Assembly: GCA_027031495.1 (NCBI GenBank)
Contig: JALVQA010000012.1
Location: 44,816 to 82,641, forward strand
Direction: 5' to 3'
Origin: Candidatus Moraniibacteriota bacterium
Lineage (GTDB): Bacteria > Patescibacteriota > Minisyncoccia > Moranbacterales > GCA-2747515
DNA: 37,826 nucleotides
The notes below the pieces were generated by a model. The model worked only from the letters and a program-made list of their open reading frames with translations. It searched no databases and was not told where the DNA came from. Both the position numbers and the translations under genes were made by a program. Of the stretch, positions 4,045-37,826 are shown in pieces; positions within the stretch are counted from its first letter, which is position 1, and every line of letters starts with the position of its first letter.

Positions 4045-6435
4045 CTATTTCTTTACACTAATTTCTCCACTTTTCTCAAGTGAATCAATCATTGACACAA
4101 TGATTTTATCAACCTCTTTGCTTGTTAACGTGCGGTCAGGTGCACCAAAGATGCAGTGAAATGCCATGGAACGTTCACCTGTTTTGTTATTTACGTACAA
4201 ATCAAAAAGGTCAACATCCTTAAGTAATACACCACCAGTATCATAAAGCACGCGCTCAACATCAGCAACACGTGTACGCGCACCAACAATCATGGAAAGG
4301 TCACGTGATACTGTCGGGTACTTTGATAGCGGCTCAAAAAACACTTCTTTCTTAAGCGCTTTTTGTACACTGTTCATATCAATTTCAGCATACGCAACAC
4401 GTGCGTTTTTAATGCCAAAGTACTTTGCCTGCTTTTTTGTAATTTCACCAATCAAACCCAGTGGGGTTTTATCCGTCCCATAAAACACAGCGTGGCGCGA
4501 CGGATGGAGCATAATATGGCGCGCGTCATCTTTGTAATCGTTACTATAGTAACACCCTTCTATACCGAGCGTATCAAGATATGCATCAATCATGCTTTTG
4601 AGAGAGAAGAACTGTCGCGCATCATTATGTTTACTCAGCACAGCGCATGCAAGTACACGGCGTTCATGTGGAAGATCATTTTTCGTCGGCTCATATATTC
4701 TACCAACCTCAAAAATGTGCACAGTGTCAGTATGTGTATAATTACGTGCACACGCTCGCATCAATGCCGGTGCAAGTGTGCGACGCATAAGTGTTTGCTC
4801 TGCGCTCATCGGGTTAAGAAGTTTTACATGTGCATTCTCATCGAGTCCCATTATTCGCGCATCATCAACGCTATAAAAGGAATAACTCTTTACTTCATCA
4901 AAACCACCTGCCACAAAAATATCGCGTGTACGATGTTCAAAAATGCGATTCTCATTGATTGGTGGTACAACAACATTCTCCTTTAGCGGTCGCGGTGGAA
5001 TATTTTCCAGACCGTACAAACGCCCGATCTCCTCAATAAGATCCTCTGGTGTGGCAAGGTCACGACGCACCGGTGGCACTGTGCACACAAGATTATCACC
5101 ATCGTGCGAAACAGCAATGCCAAGACGTGTAAAAATTTGTGCACTTTCTTTTTGTAAAATATCAATGCCAAGCAATTTTGTAACGTATGTTTGCGAAAGC
5201 GTAATTTTTTGCGGCGCAACGGGCACTGGATACACATCGCGTACACTTTTAAGTGTGCCGCCACATATTTCTTTAATAAGCGCTACTGCCTGTGCCTGTG
5301 CATGTGCCACTATTACGGGTGACGGATCACGCTCAAAACGATATGCCGCGTCAGACATAACACTATGACGCGCGCATGTTTTGCGAATTATTGTTCCATC
5401 AAAGTGTGCGCACTCAAGAATAACATTTTTCGTTGAGGATGTCACACCACTCTCTTTGCCGCCCATAACACCGGCAAATGCAAGAACTTTTTCGTCATCC
5501 GCTATTACAATATCATTTTTTGTTACTGTCAGTGTCGTGCCATCAAGCAATACCACTTTCTCATTTGTTGCCCCCATGCGTACGGCTATCGCACCACTAA
5601 TATACTCCTTATCAAATACGTGGAGTGGCTGTCCGGTCTGAAGCATGACATAATTTGTAATATCAACAAGTGGATTGATGCTTCGTATCCCACATACCAT
5701 CAGGCGCGCACGCATCCATTGTGGCGTCTGTACTGTATTATCAACACCTTCAATAAATGTTGCCGTATAACGATCACACGCATCCGTCTTCACGACAACA
5801 TTTTCACCATTGGTATTGTGTGATGGCACTGTACACTCTGTCGTCAACGGTATACTCTCTGCGCCGCGCCCCTCAATTGCAGCGATTTCCCGTGCCACAC
5901 CTTCGTGTGAGAGGCAATCGTGCGCGCGGTTCGGTAAAATATCAATTTCTATAGCCGTGTCATCCAACTCCATGTACTGTGCAAACGGCATACCGATTGG
6001 CGCATCATCCGGCAACACCATAATACCTTCGTGATCATCCCCCAGCCCAAGTTCGTCCTCAGCGCAAATCATCCCATTACTTTCTATGCCGCGAATCTTT
6101 CCTTTCCTAATCGCAAAACCCTTACCGTCTGATGTTGGTAGCACCGCACCGGGTAGCGCTACCGGTACTTTTTGTCCCTCGGCAAGATTTGGCGCACCGC
6201 AGACAATTGTGCGTAACTCGCCTTCGCCCACATCTACTTGCGCCACACTAAGACGATCAGCATTGGGATGTTTTACCTTTGTGCGCACTTGACCGACAAC
6301 GACATTTTTAAAGCCGGTACCGACTTTATCAATATCTTCCACTTCAAACGCACGCACCGTCAACACACGAGCTAGTTCCTCCGGCTCTTTTTGTGTGCCA
6401 CTTAAAGCACGCAACCACGCATAACTGTACTTCAT
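4045..6435 (-). CDS. pheT: Phenylalanyl-tRNA synthetase beta subunit
   Basis: N-terminal tRNA-binding domain (VVVGQVRTKVKHPNADRLSVAQVDVG), B3/B4, B5 and C-terminal FDX-ACB-like region; 796 aa. Confidence 0.96.
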   Translation of the reverse strand: MKYSYAWLRALSGTQKEPEELARVLTVRAFEVEDIDKVGTGFKNVVVGQVRTKVKHPNADRLSVAQVDVGEGELRTIVCGAPNLAEGQKVPVALPGAVLPTSDGKGFAIRKGKIRGIESNGMICAEDELGLGDDHEGIMVLPDDAPIGMPFAQYMELDDTAIEIDILPNRAHDCLSHEGVAREIAAIEGRGAESIPLTTECTVPSHNTNGENVVVKTDACDRYTATFIEGVDNTVQTPQWMRARLMVCGIRSINPLVDITNYVMLQTGQPLHVFDKEYISGAIAVRMGATNEKVVLLDGTTLTVTKNDIVIADDEKVLAFAGVMGGKESGVTSSTKNVILECAHFDGTIIRKTCARHSVMSDAAYRFERDPSPVIVAHAQAQAVALIKEICGGTLKSVRDVYPVPVAPQKITLSQTYVTKLLGIDILQKESAQIFTRLGIAVSHDGDNLVCTVPPVRRDLATPEDLIEEIGRLYGLENIPPRPLKENVVVPPINENRIFEHRTRDIFVAGGFDEVKSYSFYSVDDARIMGLDENAHVKLLNPMSAEQTLMRRTLAPALMRACARNYTHTDTVHIFEVGRIYEPTKNDLPHERRVLACAVLSKHNDARQFFSLKSMIDAYLDTLGIEGCYYSNDYKDDARHIMLHPSRHAVFYGTDKTPLGLIGEITKKQAKYFGIKNARVAYAEIDMNSVQKALKKEVFFEPLSKYPTVSRDLSMIVGARTRVADVERVLYDTGGVLLKDVDLFDLYVNNKTGERSMAFHCIFGAPDRTLTSKEVDKIIVSMIDSLEKSGEISVKK

Positions 6436-6549
6436 ATCTATCTATAAATATATTACGTCAGTGCAAAAACGACAGAAACACCATCGCTATGCACATTGTA
6501 CCACTCACGATAACAAAAATCTAGTAAATGCGTTATATACAATGCAATA

Positions 6550-7163
6550 TTATTGCACAGAGAAAGCTTCCACAAACCACTTGAAAACACCTTGTTTCGG
6601 CACAGAGCATATTGTTGCATCAGTCCATTGCAGTTTTGCGTGCTCATTATTGGAAAGCATAATCACACGTGGCGGTGACGGATAGAACTCTTGCAAAAGC
6701 TTCATCACCGGCCGGTCTGTCCATGTGCGTTCTGCCTGTCGCCATGGCGCAACGGGACCAAACGGACTTATTTGCGCGCAATAGCGCCATCCGTTGTCAC
6801 CACATTGGGATTTTAAACGACTCTTCGTTTGTGAGCACCGCGCGCCACGGATTAAAAACCGGCAAAATATGGTATCCTTCTTTGATAAGGTTTACTTGTC
6901 GCGCCGGTGAGAATTGTTCTCCACTGACGCTGCCGGCTGTCGCCGCGCCACCGGACCGCCACGAAGAAAAAAGTGGCAACGGCCAGTTTGCTGGATTGTT
7001 GAGCGCTTTTGCAGCGGCGGCACTTTCTGAAGCGACTAATGGCACTGTTGCCGCGTGCGCCGTCGTAGACGTAAAAAAGTGTAAATGCAAAACACAACAG
7101 TCCAACAGTAATCACTGCTCGTTTATAACAACAATTTGCCCTGGACACTTTTTTTATTTTCAA
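6550..7163 (-). pseudogene. Secreted protein gene disrupted by two apparent +1 frameshifts (or sequencing errors)
   Basis: Removing one T from the CTTTTTT run (about 7074-7080) joins LKIKKVSRANCCYKRAVITVGLLCFAFTLF to TSTTAHAATVPL, a classical signal peptide. Removing one A near 6814 joins ...VLTNEESFK to SQCGDNGWRYCAQISPFGPVAPWRQAERTWTDRPVMKLLQEFYPSPPRVIMLSNNEHAKLQWTDATICSVPKQGVFKWFVEAFSVQ*. Confidence 0.7.
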
Positions 7164-34379: not shown

Positions 34380-34572
34380 CGTTGTTATCCGAAGTGTCGC
34401 GGAGCGACGCAAGGATGACAACGAGCTTGCTCGCGGGCGTTGATGCAAAATGGAGCGGAGCGACATTTTGGATCAACGTTAGGGATATACGAAGTTTTTC
34501 TGTAGCGTAGCGGAAGAAAATTTGGGTGAGGGGCGAGCTGAGCCCCGAACCGTATATCCCTTGTTATACGCC
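34380..34572. repeat. Element A: series of nested palindromes ending in a GTTATAC core-like site
   Basis: CGTTGTTATCC/GGATGACAACG (34380-34423); CGTTGATgCAAAATG/CATTTTGgATCAACG (34438-34478); GGGATATACG/CGTATATCCC (34482-34560) enclosing GGGGC/GCCCC; then TTGTTATACGCC. Confidence 0.8.
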
Positions 34573-34625
34573 CCGACGACTGAAAGGAGGAGAGCGAAGC
34601 GTGGCACGAAGCGTAGCGGAGTAAG

Positions 34626-34694
34626 TTCAAAAAATATTTTTCGTTCTCATCAATAAGATAGGCTTTCCTCATTAATTATAAATTTGATTTTTTC
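34626..34694 (-). repeat. Left imperfect inverted repeat flanking the monophosphatase gene
   Basis: Minus strand shares AAAAAATCAAATTTAT, GAAAGCYTATCTT and GAAAAATATTTTTTGAA blocks, in order, with 35600-35671 plus strand. Confidence 0.75.
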
Positions 34695-34697
34695 CTA

Positions 34698-34742
34698 TTT
34701 GAAAAATGAAAGAGGGGTTAGGGGTGAATTCCATTTTTCAAA
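34698..34742 (-). repeat. Hairpin with CACCCCTAACCCCTCT loop directly after the IMPase stop
   Basis: TTTGAAAAATG stem with CATTTTTCAAA; loop on minus strand GAATTCACCCCTAACCCCTCTTT. Confidence 0.7.
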
Positions 34743-34747
34743 ACTGC

Positions 34748-35512
34748 TTATTTTACTGCTTGTAGTAACTCATCATGAATAACTCCATTAGATATGATAA
34801 TATTATCTTTTGAAATATCAAACTCATCTCCATTCCAATCTGTAACTTTTCCTCCAGCTTCTTCAACTAGTAAATAATGACAATAATCCCAAGGAGATGA
34901 ACCCTTTGAAATAAAACCATCATATCTATCACATGCAATTCCTGAAATTTCATCATGGCAACACATATTATTTTTTACTTGATGTACATTTGCAATTATT
35001 TTTGAAACAACCTGCTTTTCTAATTGTTTATCTGGCAAGGTTCTTATATTCAAATCAGATAATTCTAAAGTTCTATCACTTACTTTAATTTGCTTATTAT
35101 TAAGAAAAGTTCCTTCGTTCTTAATAGCACAAAATAAATCTTTTGTTATTGGATTATAGGTTATTGATAAAATTGTTTTTCCATTCTTCACTAGACCAAT
35201 CCCTATAAAGAATACAGGAATATTTCTCACAAAATTTCTTGTTCCGTCTATTGGATCAACAACAAATGAATATTCTGATTTTTTTGTTATTTCAGAAGCC
35301 TCTTCACTTATTATGGAAATTTCAGGATATTTATTTTCAAGATGTTTCAAAATAATATCATTAACTTCAATATCATATTTTGTTAATAAATCATTTGCAT
35401 CTCTTTTTGAAGATGCTTCTTTGTTTTTATCTTCATATCCATTTGCAACAATTTCTCCAACTTTATATAAAAGTTGCTCTAAATCATTTTTAATTTTATT
35501 AAGGTCAAGCAT
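34748..35512 (-). CDS. Inositol monophosphatase family protein
   Basis: SEEASE, VDPIDGTRNF and PWDYCHYLLVEEAGG catalytic motifs. Confidence 0.92.
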   Translation of the reverse strand: MLDLNKIKNDLEQLLYKVGEIVANGYEDKNKEASSKRDANDLLTKYDIEVNDIILKHLENKYPEISIISEEASEITKKSEYSFVVDPIDGTRNFVRNIPVFFIGIGLVKNGKTILSITYNPITKDLFCAIKNEGTFLNNKQIKVSDRTLELSDLNIRTLPDKQLEKQVVSKIIANVHQVKNNMCCHDEISGIACDRYDGFISKGSSPWDYCHYLLVEEAGGKVTDWNGDEFDISKDNIIISNGVIHDELLQAVK

Positions 35513-35599
35513 AATATTTAATATTGGTTAAGATTTATAAAATTATTCATTTTCGGAACGGAGTGGAGAAAACACCAATTATCCCCCTCTTTTATTTTA

Positions 35600-35671
35600 G
35601 AAAAAATCAAATTTATTCCCCTTTTTAGAAAGCTTATCTTCATCGTTCATCTTAGAAAAATATTTTTTGAA
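35600..35671 (+). repeat. Right imperfect inverted repeat flanking the monophosphatase gene
   Basis: See 34626-34694; similarity may extend out to about 35571 (ATCCCCCTCTTTTATTTT). Confidence 0.75.
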
Positions 35672-35673
35672 TT

Positions 35674-35754
35674 GCGTATATGAGAAGTTGCGACCAACGG
35701 GAGCAATTTGGGTTGAGGCTCTGCAAGAGCCGAACCTCATATACGCTGTTAGGC
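35674..35754. repeat. Element B: palindrome GCGTATATGAG...CTCATATACGC ending in TGTTAGGC core-like site
   Basis: Outer 11-bp stem, inner GGCTC-tgcaa-GAGCC stem, then TGTTAGGC; shares AATTTGGGT-GAG(G) and CGAAC with element A. Confidence 0.8.
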
Positions 35755-35875
35755 GAGGGTGAGCGAGGAACGAGCGAAAGTGCAACGACCCCGAAGCGTA
35801 CATTTTTTATCTTTTTTCTTTCATAATTGTTTCCCGCGTAGCTTTTATTATTAAATGCAAAACAAAATTTTTCTG

Positions 35876-35926
35876 TTTTGGGCGAAGGGCAGAGGGGATT
35901 AAGGGGTGAATGCCCGTAGCCCAAAA
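35876..35926 (-). repeat. Second hairpin with ATTCACCCCTTAATCCCCTCT loop, directly after the SDH protease stop
   Basis: TTTTGGGCgaaGGGC paired with GCCCgtaGCCCAAAA; loop motif shared with 34698-34742 but with a different stem sequence. Confidence 0.75.
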
Positions 35927-35930
35927 CTCC

Positions 35931-36890
35931 TTATTTCTTCTTATTTTGAGGTTGGTTTACAAGAACTTGTTGAAATTGTTTACCCCAAGAAACTCCATTT
36001 GTAGTTTCAAATAATTTTACAAAAGGAGAAATATTAAAGAATCCGTTTAATAAAACATATGCTTCCCACAACAATTCCTGCAAGGTGTCATCGGCTAATT
36101 CGATATTCAATCCAAATTTTTGTAATTTTTTTAATGAAAGAGGTCTTGAATGGAGTAAATGTTTGTCATAATCAGAAAAATAATTCACCGCTTTTTTAAT
36201 TTTTGGAGACAGCCCTTTTTTATTCTCAAACATATATTCTTTTATCCAGTTAGAAACTAATTTTTTTGATAACTTTTCTGAATCTTCACATAATTCCAAT
36301 AATTCAATCGTATATTTTTCAATTAAGGGTATATATGCAGGCAAAGACTCTGGGCCATCTTTTGCAATTTTCTCTTTTATTTTCTCAAAACCTCTTTTTA
36401 TTGATCTTGCAGGAATACCATTAATTTGTGGATCAATAGGTCCTAATACTGCACTTGAATGCAAAATAATTGAATTGCCAGAAAGGGCTAACATGGTAGC
36501 CGCTGAATATGCAGAATGAGGAATAAGAAAATTAACTTTTTCAAATCTATTTCTAAGAATTAATACAATTCTTTCTGTTGCATCTGGTTTTCCTCCTGGG
36601 CTATGAATTAATACATCAACTTCTTTAATATCTTTTGCAACTGAATTGACCATATCAGTAAAACCATCAATATCTTCTAAATCAATAAAATTTGGAATGC
36701 CAGGTGGAAGTTGCCCTAAAAATTTTGTTGCATAAACAAGCAAGGGTTTTTCCCTGTATTTTTCAATATCTTCATAACAAGCTTTTCTTAAATTTAAGGG
36801 GTTTATTTCTTTTTTGTTTTTTTGCACCTCAAGAAGAAAATCATGCCAATCTTGTATAGTTTTAAATTTTTTGCGTTGAGGAGTAGCCAT
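35931..36890 (-). CDS. SDH-type (serine dehydrogenase proteinase / ClpP-crotonase fold) protease
   Basis: VDVLIHSPGGKPDATERIVLILR, IPHSAYSAATMLALSG, SSAVLGPIDPQI. Confidence 0.88.
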   Translation of the reverse strand: MATPQRKKFKTIQDWHDFLLEVQKNKKEINPLNLRKACYEDIEKYREKPLLVYATKFLGQLPPGIPNFIDLEDIDGFTDMVNSVAKDIKEVDVLIHSPGGKPDATERIVLILRNRFEKVNFLIPHSAYSAATMLALSGNSIILHSSAVLGPIDPQINGIPARSIKRGFEKIKEKIAKDGPESLPAYIPLIEKYTIELLELCEDSEKLSKKLVSNWIKEYMFENKKGLSPKIKKAVNYFSDYDKHLLHSRPLSLKKLQKFGLNIELADDTLQELLWEAYVLLNGFFNISPFVKLFETTNGVSWGKQFQQVLVNQPQNKKK

Positions 36891-37083
36891 AAATATTGGT
36901 TTTATAATTTAAAGTTGAACTTTGCGCAGATTCATAGGTAGTTTTTCTTCCCATTGCAATATCTGCCCTATCCATTATTTCTATAGTTTTTTTATAAAAA
37001 TCAAAGGATTCAAATGCTTTTTTATTGGCATTTTTCACTTTTTTAGAAAATACTTGTTGAGTTGTAGTTTTTTTCTTAGTCAT
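36862..37083 (-). CDS. Small Lys/Thr-rich protein, 73 aa
   Basis: ORF overlapping the start of the SDH gene by 29 nt, same strand; possible operon partner. Confidence 0.5.
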   Translation of the reverse strand: MTKKKTTTQQVFSKKVKNANKKAFESFDFYKKTIEIMDRADIAMGRKTTYESAQSSTLNYKTNIYGYSSTQKI

Positions 37084-37153: not shown

Positions 37154-37826
37154 TTAAATAGATTGCAAATAACTCTGTTCAATTAAGCCCACAACATAAT
37201 TTAGTTCATCAAAACTTTTTAAAGTTATTTCTGAATTACCAATCCCATGGTGTCCGATATTTGAAACATCACGAATCATGCCTTTTGGATCATCAATTCC
37301 TTCTCCAATCCAAATCTTTATATCACTTCTTTGTAATTTCACCTCCGCAAAACTACGCCCAACTTTGTAGGCTATATATAATTTACGAGGACTTTCCTCA
37401 ATTTTTTGCTCTGATTCTAAAGTAAATATTTTTTCTCTAAGTGCAAAAAATAATTCTTTTATTTGCTCACTTTTATTTTTTAAATGATCTTCAATAGAAT
37501 ATTCTTCATAATTTACCTTTGTAATTTGTTTTGTAGTATTTGTCGTTTTTTTAGCTTGAGAACTAGCTACAAGTTTTAATTCAAAAATATTATCTTCATA
37601 GCGAGAATATCCCCATAGTTCGATGTTTTCTGCCATTCTGTTTATAGCATATTGATCGTATTTACTAAAAGTTTGTGCAACAAGCAAAACACGAGGAGAA
37701 CCAAAATTTACTTCAACATTATTGCCAAGTTTATTTTGCACAAGAAGTTGAAAATCTCCTTTATGATCTACAAGCCAATCAAGATAAAAAAGTCCTTGGT
37801 TAATAATATTATCTTTTTCTCCCCAT
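37154..37826 (-). CDS. DUF5655 domain protein with N-terminal nuclease-like region (5' end beyond window)
   Basis: The frame stays open to the window edge: WGEKDNIINQGLFYLDWLVDHKGDFQLLVQNKLGNNVEVNFGSPRVLLVAQTFSKYDQYAINRM; C-terminus SPRKLYIAYKVGRSFAEVKLQRSDIKIWI... DUF5655-like. Confidence 0.75.
   Translation of the reverse strand, partial: WGEKDNIINQGLFYLDWLVDHKGDFQLLVQNKLGNNVEVNFGSPRVLLVAQTFSKYDQYAINRMAENIELWGYSRYEDNIFELKLVASSQAKKTTNTTKQITKVNYEEYSIEDHLKNKSEQIKELFFALREKIFTLESEQKIEESPRKLYIAYKVGRSFAEVKLQRSDIKIWIGEGIDDPKGMIRDVSNIGHHGIGNSEITLKSFDELNYVVGLIEQSYLQSI

Follow-up and report, generated by a model that had tools for sequence, protein, structure and literature searches.

Two structured elements around a phosphatase gene of a Patescibacteria bacterium: probable attC sites of an integron with an I2-less integrase

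In a stretch of 37,826 nucleotides from a Candidatus Moraniibacteriota bacterium (the window), two structured palindromic elements, A and B, bracket a phosphatase gene, and their layout raises the question of what kind of sites they are. The original prediction regarded them as parts of an undescribed cassette or recombination system and left two options, a divergent attC-like site or an unrelated structured recombination site. Integrons are gene-capture systems best known for the spread of antibiotic resistance, and Patescibacteria have small, reduced genomes and are mostly host-dependent. From the sequence evidence described below, it appears that A and B serve as attC sites in a chromosomal integron carried by this Patescibacteria (CPR) bacterium, and that the integron is run by an integrase lacking the IntI-specific I2 domain; we give this reading a probability of about 0.92.

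From 34748 rightward, every gene in the window lies on the minus strand, and the array is read leftward. The features are as follows.

34470-34571, minus strand: site A, of attC type, closing the phosphatase cassette at its 3' end; its folded bottom strand is the plus strand of the window
34471-34477, minus strand: R' box of A, GTTGATC on the minus strand; its RRRY part is that of the next cassette
34481-34491, minus strand: L' arm of A, AGGGATATACG on the plus strand, pairing with 34551-34561
34551-34561, minus strand: L'' arm of A, CGTATATCCCT on the plus strand, pairing with 34481-34491
34563-34569, minus strand: R'' box of A, GTATAAC on the minus and GTTATAC on the plus strand, read from the sequence
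34478-35673, minus strand: phosphatase cassette, bounded by the B junction and by the G^TT in site A
34748-35512, minus strand: inositol monophosphatase-family gene, 254 aa (PF00459, 3e-50)
35668-35756, minus strand: site B, of attC type, closing the upstream ClpP-like cassette at its 3' end; R' lost
35674-35684, minus strand: L' arm of B, GCGTATATGAG on the plus strand; AATTC follows directly, where R' would be
35736-35746, minus strand: L'' arm of B, CTCATATACGC on the plus strand, pairing perfectly with 35674-35684
35748-35754, minus strand: R'' box of B, GCCTAAC on the minus and GTTAGGC on the plus strand, read from the sequence
35931-36890, minus strand: gene of the next cassette, a ClpP-like SDH-type serine proteinase of 319 aa (PF01972, 2e-22)
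36862-37083, minus strand: small ORF 5' of the proteinase gene, with no family
37154-37826, minus strand: DUF5655 gene, cut off by the contig end (PF18899, 3e-10)

Both palindromes are present and fold as had been described, and the gene that they bracket is indeed that of a phosphatase. Each consists of an 11-bp outer stem, an AAGTT/AATTT hairpin, and a GC-rich hairpin between GGGT and GAAC, which meet in a three-way junction. Folding energies of A and B are -38.9 and -35.9 kcal/mol on the plus strand, and -32.0 and -28.4 on the minus strand. On the functional (minus) strand the order is R''-A-L''-(hairpins)-L'-R'. The original prediction compared GTTAGGC and, as a loose fit, GTTATAC with the attC core GTTRRRY; however, these are the complements of the R'' boxes (GCCTAAC and GTATAAC), and the functional reading lies on the minus strand. 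R'' was thus mistaken for R', and no partner was found, because the wrong strand was read. The claim that a complementary partner is not evident holds for B, where AATTC stands in its place, but not for A, where GTTGATC (the complement of 34471-34477) is present and mismatched to R'', as is expected of integrated cassettes. The missing partner is therefore explained, since B has lost its R' and the R' of A belongs to the neighbouring cassette. In genome G123 the same cassette start reads ...ACGTTATACGCAATTC, while site B reads ..CATATACGCAATTC; the simplest account of the missing R' is that 13 nt were deleted between two ATACGC repeats. A similar junction is found in G042. Without R', site B may be dead, which weighs against the integron reading.

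Two further kinds of structure lie in the array. Adjoining A at 34382-34478 are two consecutive near-perfect palindromes, GTTGTTATCC..GGATGACAAC and GTTGATGC..GGATCAAC, with ends GTT/AAC; they resemble decayed mini-cassettes without a gene, and a similar unit is found at the attI of locus L030. Hairpins just past the stop codons (34701-34745 and 35875-35927) have stems that differ yet remain paired and a similar loop (ATTCACCCCT..AAYCCCTCT); they are possibly terminators or a second structured cassette element.

A simple pattern search recovered A and brought up the motif in a further two genomes of the host order. In one of these, G042, the motif has a full R' box, a tyrosine recombinase gene lies 1.4 kb away, and the cassette gene points away from the recombinase. 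A first covariance model was built from seven sites including A and B, which as seed sequences match it at 76 bits (E 4e-18) and 67.8 bits (E 8e-16), respectively. This model found 127 sites in 45 loci, and 61 of 131 genomes of the host order match; therefore, the structure of A and B is far beyond chance. Class-wide, a refined model built from the 127 sites matched 46 of 286 genomes, among them 33 from outside the host order; phylum-wide it matched 47 of 287. The sites often stand in arrays. Related genomes at the level of order, class, and phylum thus hold copies, with strong covariation, where their lack would have spoken against the original prediction.

Changed stems that stay paired had been taken as a mark of selection on a folded molecule, and the 127 sites bear this out. 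Paired cells were kept at 90.4% (72.3% in shuffles), double-sided changes numbered 767 (243 in shuffles), and the covariation score was 0.469, compared with 0.153 for shuffled alignments and at most 0.094 for slid partners. The L helix is 95.8% paired, with double-sided changes at nine of its 11 pairs. No base is inserted in the L stem in 97 of the 127 sites, and one base at a single position in 25, in an alignment that was fitted to the model. The AAC/GTT core of R'' is almost invariant, and a site in G127 has a perfect GCCTAAC/GTTAGGC pair. The bottom strand folds more stably in 114 of the 127 sites (Wilcoxon 2e-20), partly due to a conserved G-T pair (123/127 sites). The junction core (AAGTT..AATTTGGGT..GAAC) is conserved in sequence among CPR sites, which is not known of classical attC sites.

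If crossover takes place at G^TTRRRY, to which the sequences point, the R' of an integrated site is that of the next cassette, so that R'' and R' of one site may differ, whereas the two ends of a single cassette must match. In 41 of 74 cassettes, R' was perfectly complementary, over the four variable bases, to the R'' that closes that cassette. The corresponding values were 7.4% for the two boxes of the same site, 8.1% when the wrong neighbour was taken, and 7.4% for boxes paired at random, and no more than 17 matches arose in any of 20,000 permutations. The longest ORF lies on the attC strand in 65 of the 74 cassettes. Cassette genes encode HD hydrolase, radical SAM, Nudix, GNAT, GDSL, and peptide deformylase proteins, among others, and genes with their flanks are common to different genomes. 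Near-identical whole cassettes common to genomes gave one usable pair, and shared attC ends blur its breakpoints.

The same logic allowed a search for attI, in which the first bases of the first cassette were predicted from the R'' of the first attC. A perfect match (6/6) was found in 12 of 21 loci; it lies 76-112 nt from where the integrase gene starts and falls in a conserved sequence of the type TTCGCATATAAACGAG^TT. In the genome of the window, the putative attI reads AACCAG^TTATATTC.

The recombinase family was searched with 24 array-linked integrases as seeds, which gave 46 loci above 300 bits, with Xer-class recombinases below 170 bits. Model sites lie within 10 kb of 26 of the 46 family integrases, compared with one of 57 other Xer-class recombinases (Fisher 7e-11). 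All 26 of these loci have their sites 5' of the integrase and on its strand; at the single Xer-class locus the orientation is wrong. The other 20 family integrases, many of them at contig ends, have no model match within 10 kb, and this counts against the assignment. Named relatives of the recombinase come from Patescibacteria (Moranbacteria, Magasanikbacteria, Peregrinibacteria, and Gracilibacteria). Together, cassette-end complementarity, integrase layout, and attI, three tests that do not depend on folding, decide for the divergent attC-like site among the options of the original prediction. The idea of an undescribed cassette system holds only in part, for the integrase, which lacks the IntI-defining domain.

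The catalytic residues R, K, H-x-x-R, H, and Y are invariant in the CPR family. From the KDR motif to H-x-L-R-H, all 24 array-linked integrases have 51-66 residues, compared with 92-94 in nearly all IntI, including IntI1, IntI2, and the Vibrio integrase (one Pseudoalteromonas sequence has 74). All 24 lack the IntI-specific (I2) domain of about 42 residues, which in IntI lies around patch III; in the solved structure of the Vibrio integrase, residues 186-241 are the unmatched part. As reported by Messier and Roy (2001), in the passage of PMC9668308 that cites them, the I2 domain is required for IntI1 activity, and its lack in the CPR integrases is a further point against the assignment. Two CPR integrases score 224.5 and 208.8 bits with TIGR02249, below its cut-off of 265. 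With NF040815 (cut-off 220), the G042 integrase scores 226 bits and that of the window's own genome 204. The predicted structure (pLDDT 84.7) is closest in fold to VchIntIA bound to attC (2a3v, E 1.4e-18), ahead of XerA. In the phylogenetic tree, IntI is monophyletic (100/99) without the CPR sequences; however, a joint IntI and CPR clade is not rejected by the AU test (p 0.275). Therefore, loss and primitive absence of I2 are not separable.

It might be argued that the locus is a classical integron, the canonical IntI of which was missed or not assembled, and that the I2-less recombinases close by are Xer proteins with no relation to it. IntI is known to catalyse attC recombination, and integrase-less arrays are common elsewhere. 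However, not one of the 131 genomes of the host order has a TIGR02249 match over the cut-off, the I2-less family and not other recombinases stands beside the arrays in fixed orientation, and the attI junction adjoins the I2-less integrase genes. This explanation is thus very improbable.

The original prediction noted no integrase in the window, and none is present there or elsewhere on its contig, C12, which also weighs against the integron reading; however, the same genome encodes a tyrosine-recombinase integrase at C4:101457-102269. Contig C4 holds a complete unit, with integrase, putative attI, a cassette with DUF7768, an attC site, and one more cassette. C12 ends at the right edge of the window, inside the DUF5655 gene and on the side where the integrase of the array is expected; it is therefore a truncated array and not a proven integrase-less one. 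The missing N-terminus of the DUF5655 protein was sought on the other contigs of the genome and was not found. The C4 integrase may act in trans on the C12 array, or this array may have its own integrase beyond the contig end. Patescibacteria MAG contigs often end within arrays or beside the integrase (L102, L103, L105-L107, L109, and the C12 end), so that binned genomes may under-represent arrays.

Cassettes of the window have counterparts elsewhere. The DUF5655 gene also adjoins an attC-type site in G018, a genome of another family, with 91% protein identity and 87% DNA identity over 672 bp; the presence of this gene in arrays of two families (window 37154-37826; L029 3743-4632) suggests a recent cassette transfer. 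Both non-coding flanks of the phosphatase cassette are common to cassettes with other genes in G042 and G123. This cassette frame (window 34572-34750 and 35584-35673; L028 8831-8986 and 9834-10068; L065 5561-5784 and 6311-6390) is 81-90% identical in the three genomes, and its flanks are partly mutual inverted repeats. Inside it are three unrelated genes, for the phosphatase, a CDF transporter, and a membrane protein, which bears on how cassettes form.

Such a frame could also suggest a transposon-like unit, in which inverted repeats surround the phosphatase gene and A and B are not integron sites. Directly inward of A and B there are indeed nested inverted repeats (17 bp and 17 bp, 100%), and other genes are framed in the same way. 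However, the repeats fall inside the attC sites, most arrays have no frame, no transposase is linked, and the R''/R' logic and the orientation are those of an integron; there is little room left for this reading. Least probable of all is a structured RNA (leader, terminator, or riboswitch-like) flanking the genes, which would suit the strong covariation as well as single-stranded DNA does, and also the intergenic position and consistent gene orientation, but the elements had no match in an Rfam search, and an RNA predicts neither the complementarity of cassette ends across about 1.2 kb, nor the attI junctions, nor sites and flanks common to unrelated genes. Both the transposon-end and the RNA-element readings were rejected by the cassette-end and orientation tests.

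A possible mechanism for the I2-less integron can be described as follows. Each cassette would be made up of a gene and, after it, a folded attC. The CPR tyrosine recombinase would cut the folded bottom strand of attC (the plus strand of the window) between G and TT of R', and cassettes would be excised as circles, with their ends paired as R''/R'. Insertion would follow at attI, about 75-115 bp upstream of the integrase gene, or at other attC sites. In classical IntI, the I2 domain reads the extrahelical bases of attC; in the CPR system the conserved three-way junction, in place of these bases, may serve recognition and strand choice. The sequences themselves show the architecture, the covariation, the layout, attI, and the G^TT crossover, and from these features we infer the single-strand route, this role of the junction, and present activity of the system.

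Chromosomal integrons with IntI (the Vibrio superintegron, classes 1-3, and the archaeal integrons described by Ghaly et al., 2022; PMC9668308) have the same R''-L''-L'-R' attC with RYYYAAC/GTTRRRY. In them, too, crossover is marked by G^TT, attI lies next to the integrase gene, integrase and array point away from each other, most cassettes hold a single gene and share one orientation, and the bottom strand folds best. Unlike them, the CPR system has an integrase without the IntI-specific additional domain, attC sites that have a three-way-junction core in common and, as aligned to the model, mostly lack an extra base in the L stem, and hosts in the phylum Patescibacteria. XerA and its NF040815 relatives, related to archaeal dimer resolvases, have the same length (about 271 aa) and no I2 insert; however, the CPR integrase is linked to attC arrays and attI, has a C-terminal SPL ending, and is nearer to VchIntIA in fold. 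A tyrosine recombinase is also common to XerCD-dif and to Xer-using phages such as CTXphi, the latter of which uses a folded single strand as well (discussed in PMC4792948), whereas the CPR system has multi-site cassette arrays and a dedicated integrase gene in place of a dif-like single site.

Similar loci appear outside Patescibacteria. In three Flavobacteriaceae loci (L133, L135, and L124), attC-like arrays (..AACACCGTATAAAATTAATTGC...GCAACTAATCTTATACAAGACCGTTG..) lie downstream of I2-less integrases, at about 6001-6800, integrase and array pointing the same way. Cassette ends are perfectly complementary in six of 16 cassettes called by regular expression over all these loci, and, when the repeats were read by eye, in all six cassettes that follow one another in L135. 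These loci possibly represent a second phylum with I2-less integrons. In a Spirochaetota MAG, a single attC-type site (L151 7654-7756, 51 bits) neighbours an I2-less integrase, with the same inverted layout.

Integron surveys accept an integrase only with the IntI-specific domain, according to the methods passages of PMC9668308 and PMC8352920, and the integrases of the CPR systems would therefore escape them. No report of integrons in Patescibacteria or CPR was found in the open full-text literature, a scope outside which preprints and most subscription papers lie, and the passages searched of IntegronFinder 2.0 and of the archaeal survey do not mention Patescibacteria. Thus, an attC/attI integron system with integrases lacking the defining I2 domain appears to be new, a prior description being possible. 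Escudero et al. (2016; PMC4792948) described the paradox of how the I2 domain could have been selected without attC, and attC without I2, and natural attC/attI systems with I2-less integrases would make this paradox directly testable. On balance we favour a second, I2-independent kind of integron, with XerA-like recombinases, widespread among Patescibacteria and found in Flavobacteriaceae as well; being ancestral or of independent origin, it would answer this 'chicken-egg' puzzle. Patescibacteria themselves would gain a dedicated gene-capture platform, with cassettes moving between families.
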